From Sinomonas sp. ASV322 (GTDB lineage Bacteria > Actinomycetota > Actinomycetes > Actinomycetales > Micrococcaceae), in the NCBI RefSeq assembly GCF_030908245.1, contig NZ_JAVFJJ010000002.1, positions 372,001 to 436,000 on the forward strand: a DNA stretch of 64,000 nt, written 5' to 3'. The notes beneath the pieces were generated by a model, which worked only from the letters and a program-made list of their open reading frames with translations, did not search any database and had not been told where the DNA came from. This document shows, piece by piece, positions 53,671 through 64,000 of the stretch; position 1 is the first letter of the stretch; every line of letters starts with the position of its first letter. The translations under genes were made by a program, and so were the position numbers.

Positions 53671-54675
53671 TCAAGCCGGCACGGGCGCCGGCAGCGCCTT
53701 CTCATAGACGACGTCGGTGCGCACGCGCCGGAACCCGACCCGCTCGTACAGCCCGACGCCCCCGCCGGGACCCTCGGCATCGACCCCGAGGGCCGCCACC
53801 CGGAACCCCTCGGCCTTCGCGGCGGCAAGCACCTCCAGCAGCAGCCCGGTGGCGACGCCGCGGCCGCGGGCACGGCGCCGAGTCCCCACGAAACACACAT
53901 AGAGCTCGCCCGGCACGTACTCGCCGCACAGCACGTAGCCGTCCACCGCGTCGCGGGAGTCGAGCCCTCGATCGGGGCTGAGGGCCACCCGACTCAGCTC
54001 GGGCCTGAACGTCGATCCCGATATCTGGGCGACCCACAGGCCATGATCCCGCTCGGTGGCGCCGCGATGCTGGGCGAACGCCTCGTTGTGGGCGCGGCGG
54101 GTCGCCTCGGCGAGATCGCCGTCGGCCAGGTCGAACGGCAGCCCGGGCCTCGTCGCGCGGGGCCGCTCCACCTCGAGATGGCTGAGTCCTTCAGGCGACC
54201 AGTCCGCGAGGTCGAGCTGGAGGTCCTGCAGATAGCGCGCCGGCCGATAGCCCCGCGCTGCCGCGAGTCTCGCGGACGCCGACCCCGGAATTCCGGCCCA
54301 GACCGAGAGCAGGCCGGGTGCTCCGGGATGGCGGATCCCGGCGAGCTGGGCCGCGCGCGGCTCGATCCAATCCATGACCGCGCGGCCAAGGCCGCGCCCC
54401 CGCCATCCGGGGTGCACCCCACCGCCCAGAAAAGCCTTCGCGATGCCATCGCGCAGTCCTGCCCCGACGCGAAGTTGCCCGTACGCGACCATGTCCCGGC
54501 CCTTCCACGCACCCAGCGTGTCAAGGTACGGGTCGACTCCCGGCTCCTCAAGCTCCTCGGCGAGGTCTTCGGGTGCGTAATGCTCGTCCGAGCCGTCAGC
54601 CGTGGACAGGAGGTTGCTGAGCTCAGCCCACGCGGGTGTGTCCGAGGGCTCAATGGGCTTCCACACGATGCTCAT
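53671..54675 (-). CDS. Tandem-GNAT acetyltransferase (MshD-like architecture)
   Basis: The 334-residue protein has two GNAT modules. The first (about 1-150) contains GVHPGWRGRGLGRAVMDW; the second (about 165-334) contains GTRRRARGRGVATGLLLEVL, each giving the R/Q-x-x-G-x-G/A acetyl-CoA loop, and ends with LYERVGFRRVRTD. Two-domain GNATs of this size include mycothiol synthase, but key identity cannot be settled by eye. The ATG at 54675 starts the first strand (MSIVWKPIEP). A cluster of DnaA-box-like sequences lies directly upstream. Confidence 0.8.
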   Translation of the reverse strand: MSIVWKPIEPSDTPAWAELSNLLSTADGSDEHYAPEDLAEELEEPGVDPYLDTLGAWKGRDMVAYGQLRVGAGLRDGIAKAFLGGGVHPGWRGRGLGRAVMDWIEPRAAQLAGIRHPGAPGLLSVWAGIPGSASARLAAARGYRPARYLQDLQLDLADWSPEGLSHLEVERPRATRPGLPFDLADGDLAEATRRAHNEAFAQHRGATERDHGLWVAQISGSTFRPELSRVALSPDRGLDSRDAVDGYVLCGEYVPGELYVCFVGTRRRARGRGVATGLLLEVLAAAKAEGFRVAALGVDAEGPGGGVGLYERVGFRRVRTDVVYEKALPAPVPA

Positions 54676-54753
54676 GGGATTCCTCTGCGGAGGGAGGGGC
54701 CGAATCGCCGCAGAGTCACGGTAGCACCGGAATCGGCGCACTGAATGCCGCCG

Positions 54754-54939
54754 ACGTCCACAGTGTGTGAACTTTGTGCGACAAGTTATCCACAGCTTGT
54801 GGATTCACTGGGGATGATTGTCTCGCGAGACCCCGCCCAACGGCCTGCGCAGAGAAGGCCGGGCAGCTTCGCGGACCCGAATCACATGGCTGTAAGTTAT
54901 CCACGTGGGGAAAGCCCTGTGGAAAACAGCTGTGGATCA
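54754..54939. other. DnaA-box-like cluster 1
   Basis: In the 266-base gap 54676-54941, six 9-mers related to the DnaA box TTATCCACA/TTGTCCACA occur: ACGTCCACA at 54754, TTATCCACA at 54786-54794 (exact consensus), complements of consensus-like boxes at 54798 (TGTGGATTC), 54918 (TGTGGAAAA) and 54931 (TGTGGATCA), and TTATCCACG at 54897-54905. The second group begins TGTAAGTTATCCAC, a start shared with clusters 2 and 3. Confidence 0.6.
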
Positions 54940-54941
54940 GC

Positions 54942-55253
54942 TCAGTCCTCGGGCGAGACGAAGCCTTCGACCACGAGGTCCTGATACTCGGGGTGGCGAC
55001 GGAGGAACGCACGCACGTAGGGGCAGTACGGGCGGATCTTGACGCCCCTCGCGCGGACGTCGTCGAGTGCGAACTGCACGAGACGCCCCGCGAGCCCCAG
55101 GCCCGAATAGCCCTCGTGGACCTCTGTGTGGTCGAACGCGTAGACCTCCCCCTTCTCCTGCGGGCGATAGAGGGTCATCCCGATGCGTTTGCCTGCGTCG
55201 CGGAGCTCGTAGCGGTGAAGGTCGGGCGCCCAGACGATCTCGATCCGGTCCAT
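54942..55253 (-). CDS. Small GNAT-type N-acetyltransferase (YjdJ/NATD1-like)
   Basis: The 103-residue protein has the compact GNAT-like fold of the NATD1/YjdJ group: RYELRDAGKRIGMTLYRPQE, VYAFDHTEVHEGYSGLGLAG with the acetyl-CoA loop, and KIRPYCPYVRAFLRRHPEYQD near the C-terminus. Its ATG at 55253 overlaps the pirin stop (TGATG), so the two are coupled. Substrate unknown. Confidence 0.85.
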   Translation of the reverse strand: MDRIEIVWAPDLHRYELRDAGKRIGMTLYRPQEKGEVYAFDHTEVHEGYSGLGLAGRLVQFALDDVRARGVKIRPYCPYVRAFLRRHPEYQDLVVEGFVSPED

Positions 55254-56284
55254 CACTGCGCGTTCCTTTCTCGAGAGCCACCGCGCGGGCGGAGGCGGAC
55301 ATGGGGAAGTTCGGGGGCGGGAAGCGCGGAGTCGCCCCCCGTAGCCTCGACGACGGGACCGAATGGCACGCCGTCGTCCCCCGGTTCCGCGCCGATCTGG
55401 CGCTGCCACGCCGTGCGGAACGCAACGATCTCCTCGTGCCCCCGCCCGACGAAGTTCCACCACATCGTGATCTCCTCGTCGAAGGGCGTGCCGCCCAGGA
55501 GCAGGAGTCGGAGCACGTCCCGACCCGCATTCGCGAGCAGCAGCGTCGATCGGCCCGGCGGAACGTACGCAAGAGACCGCTGAGGCACGTCCGCGCCGTC
55601 GACGACGGCCGGCGCGTTGTCCGCCAGGACGCCGTGCTCGAAGCTCACGTCGAGATCGAGGACGACGGCGCCGCCCGGGCTGAGCAGGATTTCGGCACCA
55701 AGCAGGGGCGTGTGGGTGCGGACGGGCGACGTGCTGCCCGCGAGGCCTCCAAGGAAGACGCGGGCTTCCCCGGCCGTTTCGCCGTCGTGCCCGCGAAGGA
55801 CGACGACGGGGGGCACGTAGCGCTCGAAGCCCGGTTCGACGTGCCGGGATCCTTCGGGGAGGGCCGTCCACAACTGGGCGCCGTGGAGAACCGTCGTGCC
55901 GGGGGTCGAGTATTCGGAATGGTTGATCCCCCGCCCCGCGGTCATGAGGTTGAGCTCCCCGGGGCGGACAAGCGCGTGATGGCCCGCGCTGTCACGGTGC
56001 TCAACCTCGCCCGTGAACAGCCAGCTGACGGTCTGCAGACCCGTGTGAGGATGGGGCGGGACGCGCATGCCGCCGGTCCGCGAGACATCGTCGGGACCGT
56101 AATGGTCGAGGAAGCACCACGCGCCGATGAGGCTCCGCGCCTTGGAGGGCAGCGTGCGGCGCACCGGCATAGCACGGGGGCCTCCGAGGGGAACGTCCCT
56201 CGGCTCGATGAGTTCGATGGCTGGCACCGCGGCGTGCTCGGCACCGCACAGTGTCTCCTGGGGCTCGAGTTCGAGATTGCTCAT
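55253..56284 (-). CDS. Pirin family protein
   Basis: The 343-residue bicupin has pirin N-terminal motifs SLIGAWCFLDHYGP and VPPHPHTGLQTVSWLFTGEV with metal-ligand His residues, then LMTAGRGINHSEY with a further His and Glu, and a C-terminal pirin cupin. Pirins bind iron and can act as quercetinase or regulatory partners. It is coupled to the small GNAT gene. A second cluster of DnaA-box-like 9-mers lies in the 287-base gap upstream. Confidence 0.88.
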   Translation of the reverse strand: MSNLELEPQETLCGAEHAAVPAIELIEPRDVPLGGPRAMPVRRTLPSKARSLIGAWCFLDHYGPDDVSRTGGMRVPPHPHTGLQTVSWLFTGEVEHRDSAGHHALVRPGELNLMTAGRGINHSEYSTPGTTVLHGAQLWTALPEGSRHVEPGFERYVPPVVVLRGHDGETAGEARVFLGGLAGSTSPVRTHTPLLGAEILLSPGGAVVLDLDVSFEHGVLADNAPAVVDGADVPQRSLAYVPPGRSTLLLANAGRDVLRLLLLGGTPFDEEITMWWNFVGRGHEEIVAFRTAWQRQIGAEPGDDGVPFGPVVEATGGDSALPAPELPHVRLRPRGGSRERNAQ

Positions 56285-56403
56285 GGATGCCTCCTTGGCC
56301 TGAGCCTATCCGCTGGGACCGACAGCGGCGAGGAGTGCCCCGCGAGGAGCGCCCCCGCCGTCGTCCGCTGGCACCATGCGTTGTGCACTTTCCAACAGGT
56401 GCT

Positions 56404-56546
56404 ATCCCCAAAGTTATCCACAGGTGTGAACAATGCCGCCGGCGACAGTGCCCCGTATGCCGATCCGCGCTCGTCATGACGCGGGAAACGGCCGAGGAAC
56501 TACATGCCTGTAAGTTACCCACACTGTGGACAAGCGCTGTGGACAT
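56404..56546. other. DnaA-box-like cluster 2
   Basis: In the 287-base gap 56285-56571: TTATCCACA at 56414-56422 (exact), TTACCCACA at 56515-56523, TGTGGACAA at 56525-56533 (complement of TTGTCCACA, the high-GC actinobacterial form) and TGTGGACAT at 56538-56546. The downstream group begins CCTGTAAGTTACCCACACTG, nearly the same as cluster 3. The rest of the gap holds no gene. Confidence 0.65.
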
Positions 56547-56571
56547 CCGGGGAAGGGACGGCCTGCGAGGT

Positions 56572-57603
56572 TCAGCGCGAGCGGCTGCCTCGCGGCGGAG
56601 CGGTCGACGCGCGGACAACGAGGGACGGCTCGCTCCTGACGTCGACGGCCGGCGCGTGGGGATCCCGCAGCCGCTCGAGAGCCGCGGCGCCCGCGACGCG
56701 GCCGAGCTCGAGCGCGCCGAGGTCGACGGATGTGAGGTCGATCCCCCGGAGCCTCGCGAGCCGCGAGTCGTCGTAGCCAATGAGAGAGAGGTCCTCCGGC
56801 ACACGGATGCCCTTGGCGTAGGCGGCCTCCCGGATTCCGAGCGCGATCTGGTCGTTGTGCGCGAAGATGGCGGTCGGACGGCTCTCCGTATCGAAGAGGC
56901 GCAGCGCGAGGCGCTCCGCGGAGGCCTGGGTGTAATCGTCGGCGACAACGACCCACGGAGGCAGCCCGGCCTCGCGCATCGTCTGCTCGTAGGCAAGCTC
57001 GCGGTCCTGGTAGCCGAAGGGTGAGGGCCCCGTGAAGTGCGCGATGCGGGTGTGACCGAGGCTCAAGAGGTGAGCCGTCGCTGCCCGTGCGCCCATGCGG
57101 TCGTCCGAATACACGCTGTCCACCCCCTCGATCCGGCGCGCGACGCTCACGACGGGGACGCTGCGCGAGAGTTCGCGGACATGGTCCTCGGAATCGAGGA
57201 GCGTGGCCCCGATGACAATCCCGACGCGGGCTTCGATGAGGGACTCGATCCCGGCCCGCTCGGTGCCGCCACTCGAATGGGCGACGCTCAGCACGAGCCG
57301 GTTGCGCGCCCCCTCGAGGGCGCCGCGGATCCCGCTCAGGATCTCGGCGTACGTCTCGTTCCTGATGTCGAGGAGATAGAGGCCGACGGCGGAAGCCCGC
57401 TTGCTCGCGAGATCCGCCGCCGCCGCATTCTGCCGATAGCCGAGCCTCGCAGCGGCCTCGAAGATGGCCTCCCGCGTCTCCTTGCTCACCCCGGGCGCGC
57501 CACGGAACGCGAAGGAGACGAGCGTGCGCGAGACCCCCACGGCACGCGCGACGTCCTCCTGCGTCGCGGGGCGACGGGGATCGCGGGCGGCCTGCGTTGT
57601 CAC
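56572..57603 (-). CDS. LacI family transcriptional regulator
   Basis: The 343-residue protein has an N-terminal HTH (ATQEDVARAVGVSRTLVSFA) and a LacI sensor domain with SRSVPVVSVARRIEGVD and VPEDLSLIGYDDSRLARLRG. It is divergent from a sugar-porter-family transporter gene with a 149-base gap containing TAACG...CGTTA. It very likely represses that transporter in response to a sugar. Confidence 0.9.
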   Translation of the reverse strand: MTTQAARDPRRPATQEDVARAVGVSRTLVSFAFRGAPGVSKETREAIFEAAARLGYRQNAAAADLASKRASAVGLYLLDIRNETYAEILSGIRGALEGARNRLVLSVAHSSGGTERAGIESLIEARVGIVIGATLLDSEDHVRELSRSVPVVSVARRIEGVDSVYSDDRMGARAATAHLLSLGHTRIAHFTGPSPFGYQDRELAYEQTMREAGLPPWVVVADDYTQASAERLALRLFDTESRPTAIFAHNDQIALGIREAAYAKGIRVPEDLSLIGYDDSRLARLRGIDLTSVDLGALELGRVAGAAALERLRDPHAPAVDVRSEPSLVVRASTAPPRGSRSR

Positions 57604-57678
57604 GCCCTCATCCTCCCACTCGGCACGTGGGCGACGGAGAAAGACAGTTGCAAGAAGTTTGTCCGTTTGACCTTACAT

Positions 57679-57697
57679 TAACGTCTTTCGCGCGTTA
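57679..57697. promoter_or_regulatory. TAACG-N9-CGTTA dyad, candidate LacI operator
   Basis: TAACG at 57679-57683 and CGTTA at 57693-57697 form a dyad in the gap between the divergent LacI and sugar porter genes, just after TTGACC (57667-57672), which could be a -35 element. The spacer is odd-numbered, so the fit to a typical LacI operator is only moderate. Confidence 0.35.
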
Positions 57698-57752
57698 GTC
57701 TGTTCTGTGTGCGAGGTCACGGCCCGCACGCTGCACCGACAAAGGAGTCCTG

Positions 57753-59201
57753 ATGGCTAGTTCACCAACGCAGCTCGGAGCGTCGAATACACCGCTCCCG
57801 CCCCTGACCGATGGCCCGCACCGCAAGCGCCTCGGCCTCGTCGCGCTCGTCGCTACGTTCGGCGGCCTGCTCTTCGGCTACGACACGGGTGTCATCAACG
57901 GGGCCCTGAGCCCCATGTCCGCGGAGCTCGGGCTGACCCCGATCACGGAGGGCGTCGTCACCGCCTCGCTCGTCTTTGCGGCCGCGATCGGCGCGATCTT
58001 CGGCGGGCGGCTCTCCGACGCGTGGGGCCGTCGCAAAACGATCATCCTCTTGGCCGTCCTGTTCTTTGCGGGAACGCTCGCGGTCGTGTTCACTCCGAAC
58101 TTCGAGATCCTCGTCGTCGGCCGCATCCTCCTCGGCCTCGCCGTCGGCGGTGCCTCGACCGTGGTGCCGGTCTTCCTCGCCGAACTCGCGCCGTTCGAGA
58201 TCCGTGGTTCGCTCGCCGGCCGCAACGAGCTTGCGATCGTCATCGGCCAGCTCACGGCGTTCGTCGTCAACGCCATCATTGGCAGTGTCTTCGGCAACGT
58301 CGGCGGCGTGTGGCGCATCATGTTCGCGATCTGCGCACTCCCCGCCATCGCACTGTTCTTCGGCATGCTGCGGATGCCCGAGTCGCCGCGCTGGCTCGTC
58401 GAGAAGGGACGCCACCCGGAGGCCCTCGCCGTCCTGAAGACCGTCCGTACCCACGATCGGGCAGTCGCCGAACTCGCCGACGTCGAGCACGTAGCCCAGG
58501 AGGAGCGCGAGAGCCACCAGATCGGATGGCGCGCGATCTTCTCGAACAAGAATCTCTTCCGGATCCTGCTGGTAGCGATGGGCCTCGGGGTGGCGCAGCA
58601 GCTGACCGGCATCAACTCGATCATGTACTACGGCCAGACTGTCCTCACGGAGTCCGGCTTCAGCAAGGACGGCGCGCTCATCGCCAACATCGCCCCCGGG
58701 GTGATCGCCGTGGTCGGCGGCATCATCGCGCTCAAGATGATGGACCGCCTCGACCGTCGCAAGACGTTCATCACGGGCCTCTCACTCACCACGGCCTGCC
58801 ATGTGCTCATCGGCATCGCCTCGATGGCGCTGCCGATCGGCAACCCGATCCGTCCCTTCGTGATCCTGTTCCTCGTTGTCGCCTTCGTCGGCTCGATGCA
58901 GACATTCCTCAACATCGCCGTCTGGGTCTATCTCTCCGAGATCTTCCCGCTGCACATGCGCGGTTTCGGCATCGGCGTCGCCGTGTTCGCCCTCTGGGTG
59001 GTCAACGGGTTCCTCTCGCTCTACTTCCCGTCGATGGTGGCGTCGATGGGTATCACGGGAACGTTCTTCCTCTTCGCCGGCGTCGGTGCCCTCGCCCTGA
59101 TCTTCGTCGTCACCCAGGTGCCCGAGAGCCGTGGCCGCACGCTCGAGGCCCTCGAGGAAGACGTCACCACGGGCGCCATCTACTTGGTCCACAAGAAGTA
59201 G
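57753..59201 (+). CDS. Sugar porter family MFS transporter
   Basis: The 482-residue 12-TM protein has the sugar porter signatures GGLLFGYDTGVINGAL in TM1, GGRLSDAWGRRKTI after TM2, PESPRWLVEKGRHPEAL after TM6, QQLTGINSIMYYGQTVL in TM7 and VPESRGRTLEALEED after TM12. AAAGGAG precedes the ATG. It imports a sugar or polyol by proton symport. The divergent LacI gene is the likely regulator, and a clear intrinsic terminator follows. Confidence 0.92.
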   Translation: MASSPTQLGASNTPLPPLTDGPHRKRLGLVALVATFGGLLFGYDTGVINGALSPMSAELGLTPITEGVVTASLVFAAAIGAIFGGRLSDAWGRRKTIILLAVLFFAGTLAVVFTPNFEILVVGRILLGLAVGGASTVVPVFLAELAPFEIRGSLAGRNELAIVIGQLTAFVVNAIIGSVFGNVGGVWRIMFAICALPAIALFFGMLRMPESPRWLVEKGRHPEALAVLKTVRTHDRAVAELADVEHVAQEERESHQIGWRAIFSNKNLFRILLVAMGLGVAQQLTGINSIMYYGQTVLTESGFSKDGALIANIAPGVIAVVGGIIALKMMDRLDRRKTFITGLSLTTACHVLIGIASMALPIGNPIRPFVILFLVVAFVGSMQTFLNIAVWVYLSEIFPLHMRGFGIGVAVFALWVVNGFLSLYFPSMVASMGITGTFFLFAGVGALALIFVVTQVPESRGRTLEALEEDVTTGAIYLVHKK

Positions 59202-59232
59202 CCACCAGGGCCACGGCCGCTCCGACGAGGCG

Positions 59233-59280
59233 GTGCCCCGCCCGAACCTCGCGTTCGGACGGGGCACTCCGTTTTGTCTT
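59233..59280 (+). terminator. Rho-independent terminator of the sugar porter gene
   Basis: Fifteen-base arms GTGCCCCGCCCGAAC (59233-59247) and GTTCGGACGGGGCAC (59253-59267) pair with one mismatch around a 5-base loop and are followed by a T-rich GTTTTGTCTT. It lies 31 bases past the stop codon. Confidence 0.85.
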
Positions 59281-59302
59281 CGACTTTTGTCCTCGACAGC
59301 CC

Positions 59303-59371
59303 TTGACGCGATCGTTTCGGCGATCTAGTCTCGTGTTATCAACTAGTTAGTTGATCAACAGTTCAGTTGAT
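59303..59371 (+). promoter_or_regulatory. Promoter and overlapping ArsR operators
   Basis: TTGACG (59303-59308) and TAGTCT (59326-59331) are spaced by 17 bases and form a plausible core promoter. Immediately downstream, ATCAACTAGTTAGTTGAT (59338-59355) and ATCAACAGTTCAGTTGAT (59354-59371) are two inverted repeats sharing their junction AT. The sites cover the expected transcription start, so the adjacent ArsR protein probably represses its own operon here. Confidence 0.8.
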
Positions 59372-59387
59372 CTATCGGGAGGACGCC

Positions 59388-59747
59388 ATGACCACTGTCG
59401 CAGCCGACCCCGAAACGGCCGAGGAAGACCGGCTCAACCGGGCTTTCGCCGCGCTGTCGGACCCCCTGCGTCGCCGCCTCGTGGCCCGCCTCGCTCAAGG
59501 GGATGCCACGGTGAACGAGCTCGCCGAGCCCTTCTCCGTGACCCTCCAGGCCGTCTCCAAGCACATCAAGGTGCTCGAGGACGCCGGCCTCATCACGCGC
59601 AGCCGCGACGCCCAGCGCCGCCCCTGCCATCTCGACCCCCAGGCCCTGGCCCGCCTCACGGATTGGCTCGAGGGCTACCGCCAAGCAGCCGAGGAGCGCT
59701 ACGCACGCCTCGACGCACTTCTCGCATCCCAGGAGAATCCATCATGA
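59388..59747 (+). CDS. ArsR family regulator
   Basis: The 119-residue winged-helix protein contains LNRAFAALSDPLRRRLVARL, VNELAEPFSVTLQAVSKHIK as the HTH and RRPCHLDPQAL in the wing. It is of the kind paired with SRPBCC proteins rather than the metal-sensing type; no CxC metal motif is seen. GGGAGG lies before the ATG at 59388. The SRPBCC gene overlaps its stop by ATGA. Confidence 0.9.
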   Translation: MTTVAADPETAEEDRLNRAFAALSDPLRRRLVARLAQGDATVNELAEPFSVTLQAVSKHIKVLEDAGLITRSRDAQRRPCHLDPQALARLTDWLEGYRQAAEERYARLDALLASQENPS

Positions 59748-60226
59748 CCACGACCAAGACCACCGAAGTCTCCGCCGAGCCGGGCCTCCCGTTCATCACG
59801 GTCATCCGCGAGTTCGACGCTCCGGCCGAGCGAGTCTACGCGGCCCATGTGGACCCCGAGCTCTTCGTCCAGTGGATCGGTCCTCGCAGGCTTGTGACGA
59901 CGCTCGACCGCTTCGAACCCCGGAGCGGCGGATCCTACCGATTCGTGCAGTCCGACAATGAGGGCCAATCGTTCGCCTTCCACGGCTCGTTCCACGAGCT
60001 CACGGCGCCGCGGCGCATGGTCCAGACCTTCGAGTACGAGGGCGCGCCGGGCCACGTATCGCTCGATTCCGCGGAACTCGAGCCGCTCGACGGCGAACGC
60101 TGCCGCCTGACGATCCACTCGACGTTCCAGTCGGTCGAAGCCCGTGACGCGATGCTCCAGGCCGGGATGTCCGACGGTATGAGCGAGGGCTACGAACGGC
60201 TCGACGAAGTGCTCGCGCGAGGCTGA
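59744..60226 (+). CDS. SRPBCC (AHSA1/START-like) domain protein
   Basis: The 160-residue protein begins its fold with FITVIREFDAPAERVYAAHV, has ELFVQWIGPRRL and RSGGSYRFVQSDNEG, and ends with MSEGYERLDEVLARG. This is the AHSA1-like family routinely encoded with an ArsR regulator. The ATG overlaps the ArsR stop. The ligand and role are unknown. Confidence 0.88.
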   Translation: MTTTKTTEVSAEPGLPFITVIREFDAPAERVYAAHVDPELFVQWIGPRRLVTTLDRFEPRSGGSYRFVQSDNEGQSFAFHGSFHELTAPRRMVQTFEYEGAPGHVSLDSAELEPLDGERCRLTIHSTFQSVEARDAMLQAGMSDGMSEGYERLDEVLARG

Positions 60227-60308
60227 CGCGGCCTGCGCAGGCGAGACGCAGACGAGATCCAGACAAGACCCAAACAAGACTGTGCACGGGCCCGCAGGCC
60301 CGTGCACA

Positions 60309-60465
60309 GTTTCCACATTCTGTTCGATCTACTTCTCCACAGCTGGGGATAGCGGAGGACGCCCCGCTCGCGGCGTCGCCATCACGGCGGCACCGGGAGC
60401 GGGCAAACCGGTCGGTAACTACACCCCTGTAAGTTGTGCACACTGTGGACAACGCCTGTGGATTA
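60309..60465. other. DnaA-box-like cluster 3
   Basis: In the 245-base gap 60227-60471: GTTTCCACA at 60309-60317, TTCTCCACA at 60333-60341, TTGTGCACA at 60434-60442, TGTGGACAA at 60444-60452 (exact complement of TTGTCCACA) and TGTGGATTA at 60457-60465. The second group begins CCTGTAAGTTGTGCACACTG, matching cluster 2 almost base for base. A short CCCGTGCACAG-type inverted repeat at 60282-60308 (TGTGCACGGG...CCCGTGCACA) precedes it and may end the SRPBCC transcript. Confidence 0.6.
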
Positions 60466-60471
60466 GTGTGC

Positions 60472-61881
60472 TCACACGAGCTTCCGAGGCCTCATGGCCA
60501 GCCCCGCCACGGCCGCAAGCGCGAGCACCGAAAGCACCGTCGCGGACCAGAAGCCCGCGCGGCCACCGACAAAGAAGTCGCCCGGCGCGGCAAACGCCGC
60601 GAAGGTCGACGCCACGATGGCAAGGCCCACTGCCCCGCCGAGCTGCTGCATCGTCTGGAAGAGCCCCGAAGCGGACCCGGCATGCTCGGGCTCGACGTCG
60701 CGCAGCGCGAGTGTCGTGAGCGGCATGAAGGTGATCCCGGCCGAGATGCCCGTGCCGACGAGTGCGAGAGCCACCGTCACGAGGTTGGTACCGGGGCCCA
60801 ACTGGGTGAGCGGCACGAAGGCGGCGACGCGCAGCGCGGTTCCGATGAGCACGAGGCGAACGGCGCCGACGCGCTCGACGAGGCGCGGAATGATGCGGGA
60901 CATGGCGAAGATGCTCAAGGGCATCGGCAGGAACGCGAGGCCGGTCACGATCGGGGTGAGGTGCAGGTCGTCCTCAAGGTACTGGACCATGAGGAAGAAC
61001 ATCGCGAGCATGCCGCCATACGTCGCGGCCATGGCCGCAAGTGCGGCGACCCGGCTCGGGCTACGCAGCAGCTTCGGCGCCAGGAGCGGGTGGGACACGC
61101 GGCGTTCTGTCACGGCGAGCACCCCGAGGAGCACGGCGCCCACAGCGAACCCGCCGATCGTCCTGGCGCTGAACCATCCGTAGTCGGGCGCCTGGAGCAG
61201 GGCCCACACGATCGAGACAGCGCCGCCGGTTGCCGTGATCGCGCCGAGAACGTCGAATCGCCCGGGCCGGCGCGGGGTTTCGGCGACAAGGCGCGGAACG
61301 GCAAGCAGGACGACGATGCCGATCGGCACGTTGATGAAGAGCGTCCAGCGCCAGCTCGTTGTGTCCGTGAGGACACCGCCGAGGATGAGGCCGAGGGCAC
61401 CGCCCATGGACGCGATGGCCGAGAAGAGCGCAAGGGCACGATTTCGGGCTCCCTCGTCGCGGGCGTTCGTCGTGATGAGCGCGAGCACGCTCGGGGCGGC
61501 GAAGGCCGCGCCGAGGCCCTGGAGGGCGCGGGCGACGACGAGCAGGAGCGGGGATGTGGCGAGGCCGCCGAGGAGCGAGAACAGCGTGAAGGCCGCAACG
61601 CCGACGAGGAACGTGCTGCGGCGGCCCAGGACATCGCCGACGCGTCCGCCGAGCAGCAGGAGTCCGCCGAAGGCGAGGGCGTAGCCGTTGAGAACCCAGC
61701 TGAGCTCCGCCCGGGAGAAGTTGAGGTCGGCGGCGATGTGCGGGAGCGCGACGTTCACCACGGTCGCGTCGAGGACGAGCATGAGCTGGGCCAGCATGAC
61801 CAGCCACAGGCCGGTGTTACCGGTCCGCGGGCTGGAGGGCGCCGCCGGAGCGGGCGTGCGCAGAGCCATTGTGGGTGCCAT
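60472..61881 (-). CDS. MFS transporter, DHA2 (EmrB/QacA) type
   Basis: The 469-residue protein of about 14 TM segments has the DHA2 TM1 signature LDATVVNVALPHIAADL, WVLNGYALAFGGLLLLGGRV with the following RVGDVLGRR loop, and motif C in TM5 (ASMGGALGLILGGVLTD). It would export drugs or toxic metabolites. The ATG at 61881 is preceded by AGGA; the frame extends 32 codons upstream but only through operator-like sequence. It is divergent from a TetR gene, the usual arrangement for a regulated efflux pump. Confidence 0.87.
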   Translation of the reverse strand: MAPTMALRTPAPAAPSSPRTGNTGLWLVMLAQLMLVLDATVVNVALPHIAADLNFSRAELSWVLNGYALAFGGLLLLGGRVGDVLGRRSTFLVGVAAFTLFSLLGGLATSPLLLVVARALQGLGAAFAAPSVLALITTNARDEGARNRALALFSAIASMGGALGLILGGVLTDTTSWRWTLFINVPIGIVVLLAVPRLVAETPRRPGRFDVLGAITATGGAVSIVWALLQAPDYGWFSARTIGGFAVGAVLLGVLAVTERRVSHPLLAPKLLRSPSRVAALAAMAATYGGMLAMFFLMVQYLEDDLHLTPIVTGLAFLPMPLSIFAMSRIIPRLVERVGAVRLVLIGTALRVAAFVPLTQLGPGTNLVTVALALVGTGISAGITFMPLTTLALRDVEPEHAGSASGLFQTMQQLGGAVGLAIVASTFAAFAAPGDFFVGGRAGFWSATVLSVLALAAVAGLAMRPRKLV

Positions 61882-62575: not shown

Positions 62576-63448
62576 TCAGACGGCCGACGTCGGCAGCGAC
62601 CCTCCGAGCATCCTCGCCCGGGCAAAGGCGAGGACCACGAGCAGGGCGGCGACGAGCGCGAGCCCGCCGATCTGGACGACAAGCTGGAAGCGGCCGCGCG
62701 GCGCATAGGCGATGGCCGCCGTCGTGAGCCCACCCGTGATGAGCCCGCCGAGATGTGCCTGCCATGCGATGCCCTGGATGACAAAGCCCAGCACGGCGTT
62801 GATGCCGATGAGGATGAGGAGCTGGCTCACGTCTCCCCCGCGCTGGCGGACGACGACGAAGAGCGCACCGAAGAGGCCGAAGATCGCCCCCGAAGCGCCG
62901 ATCACGCCGTTCATCGAGACGGGCGTGAGCACGAAGAAGCCCACGGATCCGCCGAAGGCCGAGATGAGGTACACCGCGAGATAGCGGACCCGCCCGAGCA
63001 CGGGCTCGAGGACGCGCCCGAAGATCCACAGCGTGTACATGTTGAGCACGATGTGGAGGACGAATCCCTGGGAATGCAGAAACGCGCTCGTGAGCATGCG
63101 CCAAGGCTCGGCCGCCGTGAGCGCCGTCGCGTACGCAAAGTCCTGATAGACCTCATCGTTCGGGAGAAGCCACTGGAGCGCGTACACGGCCACATTGACG
63201 GCGATGATCACCCACGTGACAACCGGCTGGCCTGATCGGCCCACCCGCGCGCCGAAGCGGGTCCTCACCGGCGGCGCCGAGAGCTCCCGCACGCAGTCGA
63301 CGCAGTGGATGCCGACCGCGGCCGGCCGCTGGCACTCTGTGCACGTGGGGCGCCCGCACCTCTGGCATCTCACATAGGAGATCCGATCTGGGTGGCGAGG
63401 GCACACGGGCACGGCGGCCGGCTCCGCGGGCGACATTCCATAACTCAT
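62576..63448 (-). CDS. Rhomboid family intramembrane serine protease
   Basis: The 290-residue protein has an N-terminal B-box-like zinc-binding segment (CPRHPD, CQRCGRPTCTEC, CVDC; residues 16-52) and a six-TM rhomboid domain. The catalytic dyad is Ser186 (GASGAIFG) and His232 (AHLGG), with His132 and Asn136 (LHIVLNMY) of the oxyanion region. It cleaves membrane proteins within the bilayer. In actinobacteria this gene commonly lies next to ppiA near gyrA, which is the arrangement seen here. Confidence 0.92.
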   Translation of the reverse strand: MSYGMSPAEPAAVPVCPRHPDRISYVRCQRCGRPTCTECQRPAAVGIHCVDCVRELSAPPVRTRFGARVGRSGQPVVTWVIIAVNVAVYALQWLLPNDEVYQDFAYATALTAAEPWRMLTSAFLHSQGFVLHIVLNMYTLWIFGRVLEPVLGRVRYLAVYLISAFGGSVGFFVLTPVSMNGVIGASGAIFGLFGALFVVVRQRGGDVSQLLILIGINAVLGFVIQGIAWQAHLGGLITGGLTTAAIAYAPRGRFQLVVQIGGLALVAALLVVLAFARARMLGGSLPTSAV

Positions 63449-63490: not shown

Positions 63491-64000
63491 TCAGAGCTGC
63501 TCGACCTCGATCGACGTGATCACGACGTCCTGGACGGGCCGGTCCTGCATGCCCGTGCGAACACCCTCGATCTCGTCGACAACCTTCTTCGAGGCCTCGT
63601 CGGCCACCTCGCCGAAGATCGTGTGCTTCCCGAAGAGCCAGCTCGTGTCGACCGTCGTGATGAAGAACTGCGAGCCGTTCGTGCCCTTGCCGCCCTGGAT
63701 GCCCGCGTTGGCCATCGCGAGCTTGTACGGATCCTTGAAGTTGAGCTCGGGGTGGATCTCGTCGTCGAAGCGGTAGCCGGGGCCGCCCACGCCCTTGCCC
63801 AGGGGATCGCCGCCCTGGATCATGAAGTCCTTGATGATGCGGTGAAAGATCGTGCCGTTGTAGAGGGGCGTGCCGGACTTGTCCTCGCCCGTCTCGGGGT
63901 GCGTCCAGGACTGCTCGCCCGTCGCGAGTCCCACGAAGTTCTTCACGGTCTTCGGCGCGTGGTTGCCGAAGAGGTTGACCACGATGTCGCCGTGGTTCGT
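63491..64000 (-). CDS. ppiA: Cyclophilin-type peptidyl-prolyl isomerase (N-terminus beyond window)
   Basis: The frame runs from the stop at 63491 to the window edge (about 169 residues), with a few N-terminal residues missing. It contains the cyclophilin core: NLFGNHAPKTVKNFVGLA, FHRIIKDFMIQGGDPLGKG with the catalytic Arg, GTNGSQFFIT, and WLFGKHTIFGEV with the conserved Trp and His. It catalyses proline isomerisation in the cytoplasm. The frame continues upstream of the first visible GTG, so it is a true partial gene. Its position beside a rhomboid gene matches the gyrA-ppiA region of actinobacteria. Confidence 0.93.
   Translation of the reverse strand, partial: TNHGDIVVNLFGNHAPKTVKNFVGLATGEQSWTHPETGEDKSGTPLYNGTIFHRIIKDFMIQGGDPLGKGVGGPGYRFDDEIHPELNFKDPYKLAMANAGIQGGKGTNGSQFFITTVDTSWLFGKHTIFGEVADEASKKVVDEIEGVRTGMQDRPVQDVVITSIEVEQL

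Follow-up and report, generated by a model that had tools for sequence, protein, structure and literature searches.

A conserved DnaA-box element with a putative control function near the replication origin of Sinomonas and other Actinomycetes

Re-initiation control is less understood in Actinomycetes than in Escherichia coli, where the DnaA-reactivating sequences (DARS) lie far from oriC. Clusters of DnaA boxes near oriC were reportedly described by Smulczyk-Krawczyszyn in 2006 for Streptomyces coelicolor, one of them said to be named D78, and by Okumura in 2012 for Bacillus subtilis. According to the available part of one report, such near-oriC clusters repress untimely initiation in both species (PMC4585315), and the available part of another states that the cores of DARS1 and DARS2 share their spacing, with box I oriented opposite to boxes II and III (PMC5742627). 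Here, we describe a composite DnaA-box element in a 64-kb stretch of the genome of Sinomonas sp. ASV322 (the window), which occurs in three intergenic gaps, A, B and C. We consider it an evenly balanced proposition, resting on sequence comparison, that these gaps hold copies of a conserved, origin-proximal control element for DnaA that would act by titration.

At the level of sequence, the layout of the element, its conservation, its location and the excess of its box order are demonstrated below. By these comparisons the element is real, old and conserved, and of a known general kind; its composite form is new, and its location is widely kept. A search of the openly licensed literature returned no report on DnaA boxes in the gap between the rhomboid-family gene and crgA, which does not prove absence from print. 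The available parts of PMC4285127, PMC3411110, PMC4210621, PMC5448010, PMC11019786 and PMC5835720 do not place the S. coelicolor clusters on the chromosome.

Ordered boxes and a half-site pair in three gaps

Using the pattern TTRTCCACA with at most one mismatch, we counted 19 boxes in the window, whereas 100 dinucleotide shuffles averaged 5.47 and never exceeded 12. Thirteen of the 19 fall inside the gaps (four in A, five in B and four in C), which bears out the box clusters described in an initial annotation. A pattern search likewise confirmed the exact boxes that it had named, at 54786 (+), 56414 (+), 56525 (-) and 60444 (-). Alignment and a repeat search revealed a block common to the three gaps: AAYYACA, 4 bp, TGTAAGTT, one box on the plus strand and two on the minus strand. 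The annotation had the ordered group begin at TGTAAGTT; the group is real and reaches further left, to the AAYYACA half-site four bases before. The ordered boxes have the same start-to-start spacing in B and C and a looser one in A. Each ordered group is preceded by an earlier box group, which in A and B is also a triad with its first box opposite to the next two (written > < <) and in C is an inverted pair. This two-part layout, proposed from the start, recurs in three named Sinomonas contigs with three loci each, the weakest part being the first group of copy A in L209; L207 and L209 are probably the same records as G010:C2 and G012:C12 and are not counted as extra evidence. All seven > < < readings of the window, at up to two mismatches per box and with starts 9-16 bases apart, sit in the three gaps (Table 1).

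Table 1. Positions of the box groups, half-site pairs and flanking genes in the window
Feature	Position	Strand	Description
Locus A gap	54680..54941		between GNAT gene 53671-54675 (-) and GNAT gene 54942-55253 (-)
Locus A first box group	54786..54817	+	> < < triad TTATCCACA / TGTGGATTC / TGGGGATGA, start-to-start 12, 11
Locus A half-site pair	54880..54898	+	AATCACA-TGGC-TGTAAGTT
Locus A ordered boxes	54897..54939	+	54897-54905 (+), 54906-54914 (-, weak), 54918-54926 (-), 54931-54939 (-)
Locus B gap	56285..56571		between pirin gene 55253-56284 (-) and LacI-type gene 56572-57603 (-)
Locus B first box group	56402..56433	-	> < < triad on minus strand, start-to-start 11, 12; contains exact box 56414-56422 (+)
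Locus B half-site pair	56498..56516	+	AACTACA-TGCC-TGTAAGTT
Locus B ordered triad > < <	56515..56546	+	56515-56523 (+), 56525-56533 (-, exact), 56538-56546 (-); start-to-start 10, 13
Locus C gap	60227..60471		convergent: AHSA1-type gene 59744-60226 (+) / major facilitator superfamily (MFS) gene (-) ending at 60472
Locus C first box group	60333..60352	+	inverted pair TTCTCCACA-GC-TGGGGATAG (by eye)
Locus C half-site pair	60417..60435	+	AACTACA-CCCC-TGTAAGTT
Locus C ordered triad > < <	60434..60465	+	60434-60442 (+), 60444-60452 (-, exact), 60457-60465 (-); start-to-start 10, 13
Rhomboid-family gene	62576..63448	-	Pfam PF01694; commonest neighbour of the element in relatives
ppiA-type cyclophilin gene	63491..63982	-	Pfam PF00160; adjoins the rhomboid gene

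We then looked for copies in the whole host genome (4.34 Mb in 33 contigs). The ordered motif, allowing three mismatches, matched five times, three of these being A, B and C, with A itself at three mismatches; this search is weak on its own because the reversed control gave three matches in the same genome. R1, a sequence-only model built from 41 copies from which the A copies of the genus were excluded, gave nine matches at E<=1, and only A, B and C lay below E 0.001 (1e-15 to 2e-9; A 1.6e-9, B 9.5e-16, C 2.6e-15). B and C are training copies of R1, and A is an untrained match. The next best match was partial, at C7:21755 (E 0.005). Exact TTRTCCACA occurred 39 times genome-wide, against six for the reversed pattern. 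The element had been envisaged as dispersed, which does not hold for the strong copies, confined as they are to one locus by the ordered motif and by R1; the even spread over the chromosome that had been named as counting against a replication role was looked for and not found.

The window belongs to contig C12, and dnaA lies on a separate contig (C7:11326-12627), next to dnaN. From its start, C7 carries a transposase-like fragment, tRNA-Ala, tRNA-Ile, gyrA, gyrB, recF, dnaN and dnaA, the proteins being named by reading their translations. Neither dnaA nor dnaN flanks the element, which is in agreement with the annotation that it is not oriC itself. C12 ends 13 kb beyond the window, and ppiA and the rhomboid gene near the window's end match the same gene order and strand. 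Judging from gene order and strands, the end of C12 probably abuts the start of C7, and the nearest copy would then lie at least about 28 kb from dnaA, which fits the origin-proximal position first suggested. The crgA gene, the usual neighbour elsewhere in the class, is found here at C12:360352, 66-72 kb from the copies.

Other features were seen around the host dnaA. A transposase-like reading frame at the start of C7 (L007 1-932, by eye) is a possible cause of the assembly break between C12 and C7. About 9 kb upstream of dnaA, a stretch that is gene-poor by eye (C7:21390-21789; L008 7390-7789) holds four exact and two near DnaA boxes, close to two parS-like GTTTCACGTGAAAC palindromes. Four other Sinomonas genomes (G002, G004, G009 and G013) have weak R1 matches at some 8-9 kb from dnaA. 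Six DnaA-like boxes, two of them exact, were noted about 53 kb upstream of the host dnaA (L010 5641-5813, C7:65.6-65.8 kb).

Conservation, the dyad and distance from dnaA

The region downstream of crgA was used for a test independent of the element's motif. A CrgA family search was positive in 52 of 52 genomes, and the 300 bp after the crgA stop were taken in 50 (G462 and G512 were left out). Boxes were defined here as YTRTCCACA with at most one mismatch, and triad spacing was allowed to be 10-12 and 11-13. The crgA-downstream DNA (15.2 kb) held 122 boxes, compared to 77 in the 137.5 kb that make up the rest of these loci. When recounted, the 50 stretches of 300 bp contained 121 boxes; shuffling left a mean of 7.1 (largest 16), and the reversed consensus occurred 13 times. 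A > < < triad was present in 28 of the 50 stretches and in none of 40 shuffle rounds; by topology, > < < was present in 29 of 50, and the other three arrangements in 6, 3 and 7. Owing to the relatedness of these genomes, the counts do not represent independent events.

R1 matched in 17 of 17 genomes at E<=1, with best E-values per genome from 9.5e-16 to 4.7e-5. At E<=0.01, full or partial matches were obtained in 207 of the 297 order genomes, including 24 of 24 in the family, and at E<=0.001 in 158 of the 246 class genomes. Many class matches span nearly all of R1; others cover the boxes alone (positions about 19-52). Forty loci outside the family, chosen for spread and strength and not at random, were fetched. 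ppiA and/or the rhomboid gene was present in 37 of them, the rhomboid gene within 1 kb of the element in 31. By a crude test, CrgA was recognised nearby in 17 of the 40, and crgA is convergent with the rhomboid gene or ppiA in 16 of these, L135 being the exception. R1 is not specific alone: the listed match in G037 (C1:2151232) lies about 16 kb off the crgA-rhomboid gap, and that gap holds two perfect dyads with boxes.

Among 58 relatives, a strict pattern of the element was found in 27: every one of the 15 genus genomes, 12 of 21 from the other genera of the family and none of 22 outside it. The reversed control gave no match in any of the 58. A looser expression detected three copies in 11 and two copies in 4 of the 15 genus genomes. 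All 15 carry the element near ppiA and the rhomboid gene, whose closest named relatives are from Sinomonas, and in the 14 genomes other than the host's it lies downstream of dnaA. The gene order in the genus is ppiA, rhomboid, C, ArsR-type, B, pirin, GNAT, A; in the host genome, the copies are separated or flanked by LacI, sugar-transporter and MFS genes. Of 27 family loci, 23 yielded copies with the looser expression, 51 in all; three copies lack a rhomboid gene, and in all 48 that have one in the same fetched locus the element is on the strand opposite to it. This constant strand, together with the single locus, does not agree with the idea that a repeat family merely uses DnaA boxes. To the left of TGTAAGTT, A(-11) and ACA(-7 to -5) did not vary in any of a set of 51 copies, though the half-site was not used in collecting them.

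Copies in other genera occur in pairs 0.3-0.4 kb apart (G016, G023 and G033), and the Sinomonas copies are 1-4 kb apart with genes between them. Most simply, neighbouring copies would have been parted by gene insertions in Sinomonas, yet kept, in which case copy number would be under selection. In another genus of the family (g3), L055, L205 and L206 show pairs of the full element about 0.3-0.4 kb apart, and no rhomboid gene, ppiA or crgA was found in the 20, 2.5 and 2.4 kb fetched. Upstream of the ArsR-type gene, six Sinomonas loci (L042, L043, L044, L048, L050 and L051) show, by eye, a TTGAC-type -35 and a TATTCAAC motif that lie a few bases beyond the end of copy B, and DnaA could also touch this promoter in those species.

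Sixteen of the 40 loci outside the family have an exact dyad, AAYYACA-N4-TGTRRTT, as the left part of the element, and it adjoins or overlaps a DnaA box; the TGTAAG form of the family is kept in some others (L100-L103). Thirteen of 21 DnaA-linked dyads are perfectly symmetric (p 0.007, halves shuffled), and the dyad is a likely site for a dimeric protein. Since only those 13 of the 21 are symmetric, strict covariation of the half-sites was rejected and a hairpin is not claimed. The dyads of the window fold at 0 to -1.2 kcal/mol and lack a T run; beyond the family, some could fold into a hairpin of 7 bp, three of the four tested giving -2.5 to -4.8 kcal/mol. The dyad pattern was present in 18 of 32 genomes, with none for the reversed control except in one genome, and several of the matches are the element itself. 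Eight of nine other dyad sites have no DnaA box within 60 bp, and G424:22655 has four. These eight (L196, L197, L198, L199, L200, L201, L203 and L204) are perhaps other targets of the putative dyad protein; a blastp comparison revealed no neighbour gene family shared among them. MtrA was considered as the dyad protein. As far as the available parts of the sources go, MtrA binds oriC in actinobacteria (PMC5487470) and its published motif is a direct repeat (PMC6265350); the pair here is inverted, and MtrA is not supported.

With dnaA serving as a proxy for oriC, distances were collected for 127 genomes that have a listed element match and a listed dnaA on one contig, and 121 of these pairs are within 75 kb. 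For matches reaching the half-site part the count is 105 of 107, with a median of 17.6 kb, and for box-only matches 16 of 20. The six beyond 75 kb are G203 (229 kb), G015 (110 kb), G137 (390 kb), G539 (129 kb), G430 (124 kb) and G508 (115 kb). Pairs split over contigs or lying across contig ends (such as G009, G036, G151, G361, G412 and G534) fall outside this table, as do G016, G159, G226 and G319, whose best copies are elsewhere and which each have a weaker R1 match 15-25 kb from dnaA. In three Sinomonas genomes crgA is far from dnaA (134, 87 and 206 kb in G003, G009 and G013) and the element is still 17-30 kb from it. G159 (genus g3) has an extra copy pair that, counted across the contig ends, is some 82 kb away from dnaA; the 2.4 kb fetched hold no rhomboid gene, ppiA or crgA, and G016 has a like pair with none of these genes in the 20 kb fetched. 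Because the element stays close where crgA is far in Sinomonas, and because of the extra G159 pair without the block genes, our data suggest that it is the element itself that is kept near the origin.

Titration and the alternatives

We favour a titration-type mechanism. DnaA would assemble on the boxes. With some tens of kb between the locus and oriC, the fork would pass it soon after initiation and double these strong DnaA sites. The doubled sites would draw down free active DnaA and so delay re-initiation, possibly together with a change in the nucleotide state of DnaA. A dimeric protein on the dyad, which overlaps the first DnaA box, may help or hinder the assembly, in a role like that of IHF and Fis at E. 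coli datA and DARS2. A broader version, which we put forward tentatively and think rather less probable, is that the element is a class-wide counterpart of datA and DARS that has stood beside the rhomboid gene and crgA since the Actinomycetes ancestor, and that a dedicated dimeric protein on AAYYACA-N4-TGTRRTT switches the DnaA complex on the > < < triad and thereby times initiation. Being small, conserved, open to deletion and clearly located, an element with a putative second protein site would allow re-initiation control in Actinomycetes to be tested, and could serve as bait for a replication regulator.

Several observations weigh against this interpretation. Fewer than two boxes were found in 18 of the 50 crgA-downstream regions; seven of these belong to family f1 (four Sinomonas and three others) and carry the element away from crgA, and the other eleven have no explanation. 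R1 found no match at the thresholds given above in 90 of the 297 order genomes and 88 of the 246 from the class. No exact dyad turned up in f35, f36, f37 and f53, with one or two genomes searched from each, and dyads elsewhere lie near unrelated genes. Nearness to oriC is partly due to synteny with the block of ppiA, rhomboid and crgA. Finally, some genomes have > < < triads next to dnaA too, so this layout is confined neither to the element locus nor to control sites.

The main rival is reactivation as at DARS, in which head-to-head DnaA on the first two boxes would promote ADP release, giving more active DnaA and promoting initiation. We regard it as unlikely, though it is the strongest of the alternatives. 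E. coli MG1655 has two sites of > < < order, one in the bioD-uvrB gap and the other between rppH and mutH, which, from their locations and from the shared spacing and opposed box I described in PMC5742627, we take to be the cores of DARS1 and DARS2. The box order of the element is that of these two sites, and it is this very topology that exceeds the other three downstream of crgA. An extra protein site beside the boxes is also a feature of DARS2, according to the available parts of PMC5742627 and PMC8682772. The start-to-start distances, however, are 10 and 13 here (10-12 and 11-13, the range allowed, in relatives), compared to 14 and 12 in both E. coli sites, and the triads beside dnaA speak against a reactivation function as well.

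Slightly less probable still is an oriC module, accessory or ancestral, that would form a loop to oriC and aid DnaA loading or segregation. The oriC-like triads, their occurrence beside dnaA and the short distance to this gene are consistent with origin machinery, as is the second box cluster near parS-like sites some 9 kb on the other side of the host dnaA. This explanation is opposed by the lack of a dnaA or dnaN flank, by the six of 127 genomes with 110-390 kb between the element and dnaA, and by base composition: the gaps have no very AT-rich stretch, their lowest 40-bp G+C being 0.43-0.45, compared to 0.375 in the dnaN-dnaA gap.

We find it improbable that the boxes serve DnaA in the transcriptional control of neighbouring genes (rhomboid, crgA, pirin or ArsR-type). 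The position of copy B just before the -35 of the ArsR-type gene in several Sinomonas genomes argues for such control, but in the host LacI and sugar-transporter genes lie between B and that gene, and copies persist when the neighbours change. The convergent arrangement in 16 of the 17 loci with recognised CrgA places the gap at gene ends, and no promoter-like site was found between 54.6 and 60.6 kb, where shuffles also gave only 0.4. A bidirectional terminator, RNA element or mobile repeat that resembles DnaA boxes by chance is already disfavoured and is the least credible explanation, for although some dyads outside the family could form a hairpin, the setting is often convergent and gap C holds a terminator-like hairpin (60279-60310, outside the element), the window dyads fold poorly and lack a T run, no Rfam family matched at the gathering threshold (one chance-level match lay below it), and a single locus, a fixed strand and DnaA-specific box sequences do not fit.

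Comparison with known systems

Overall, the interpretation of the initial annotation is partly supported: a DnaA-regulating element of the datA or DARS kind fits, with boxes ordered as in DARS cores, but the spacing is not that of DARS. The class-wide conservation, the location by rhomboid and crgA and the additional half-site pair go beyond it. DARS1 and DARS2 resemble the element in having three boxes at fixed spacing with the first opposite to the next two, and DARS2 also in having accessory protein sites. The orientation of box I relative to II and III is found in the element as well, and the 14, 12 spacing is not, with 10/13 in B and C; the element thus appears to follow a similar plan without being DARS by spacing. 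The accessory site differs too, being a dyad-like pair here and IHF and Fis sites in E. coli DARS2.

E. coli datA, described in the available part of PMC5742627 as a non-coding cluster of DnaA boxes with an accessory-protein site, is alike by this description, and its accessory site differs from the one found here. Streptomyces xantholiticus has a box cluster directly after the rhomboid gene, with no dyad at that locus, and in f37, which may be Streptomyces-like, two to seven boxes lie within 300 bp after crgA in five of five genomes, the exact dyad being absent in the two searched. The B. subtilis clusters, by their published description, resemble the element as groups of DnaA boxes close to oriC, and are reported to restrain initiation, a role that the element may share. 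Like the clusters of Bacillus and Streptomyces, the element consists of dense intergenic boxes near but outside oriC, given the probable contig join in the host. The best reading of these sequences, one we hold with about equal confidence and doubt, is that the element may work as the Streptomyces and Bacillus DnaA-box clusters do.

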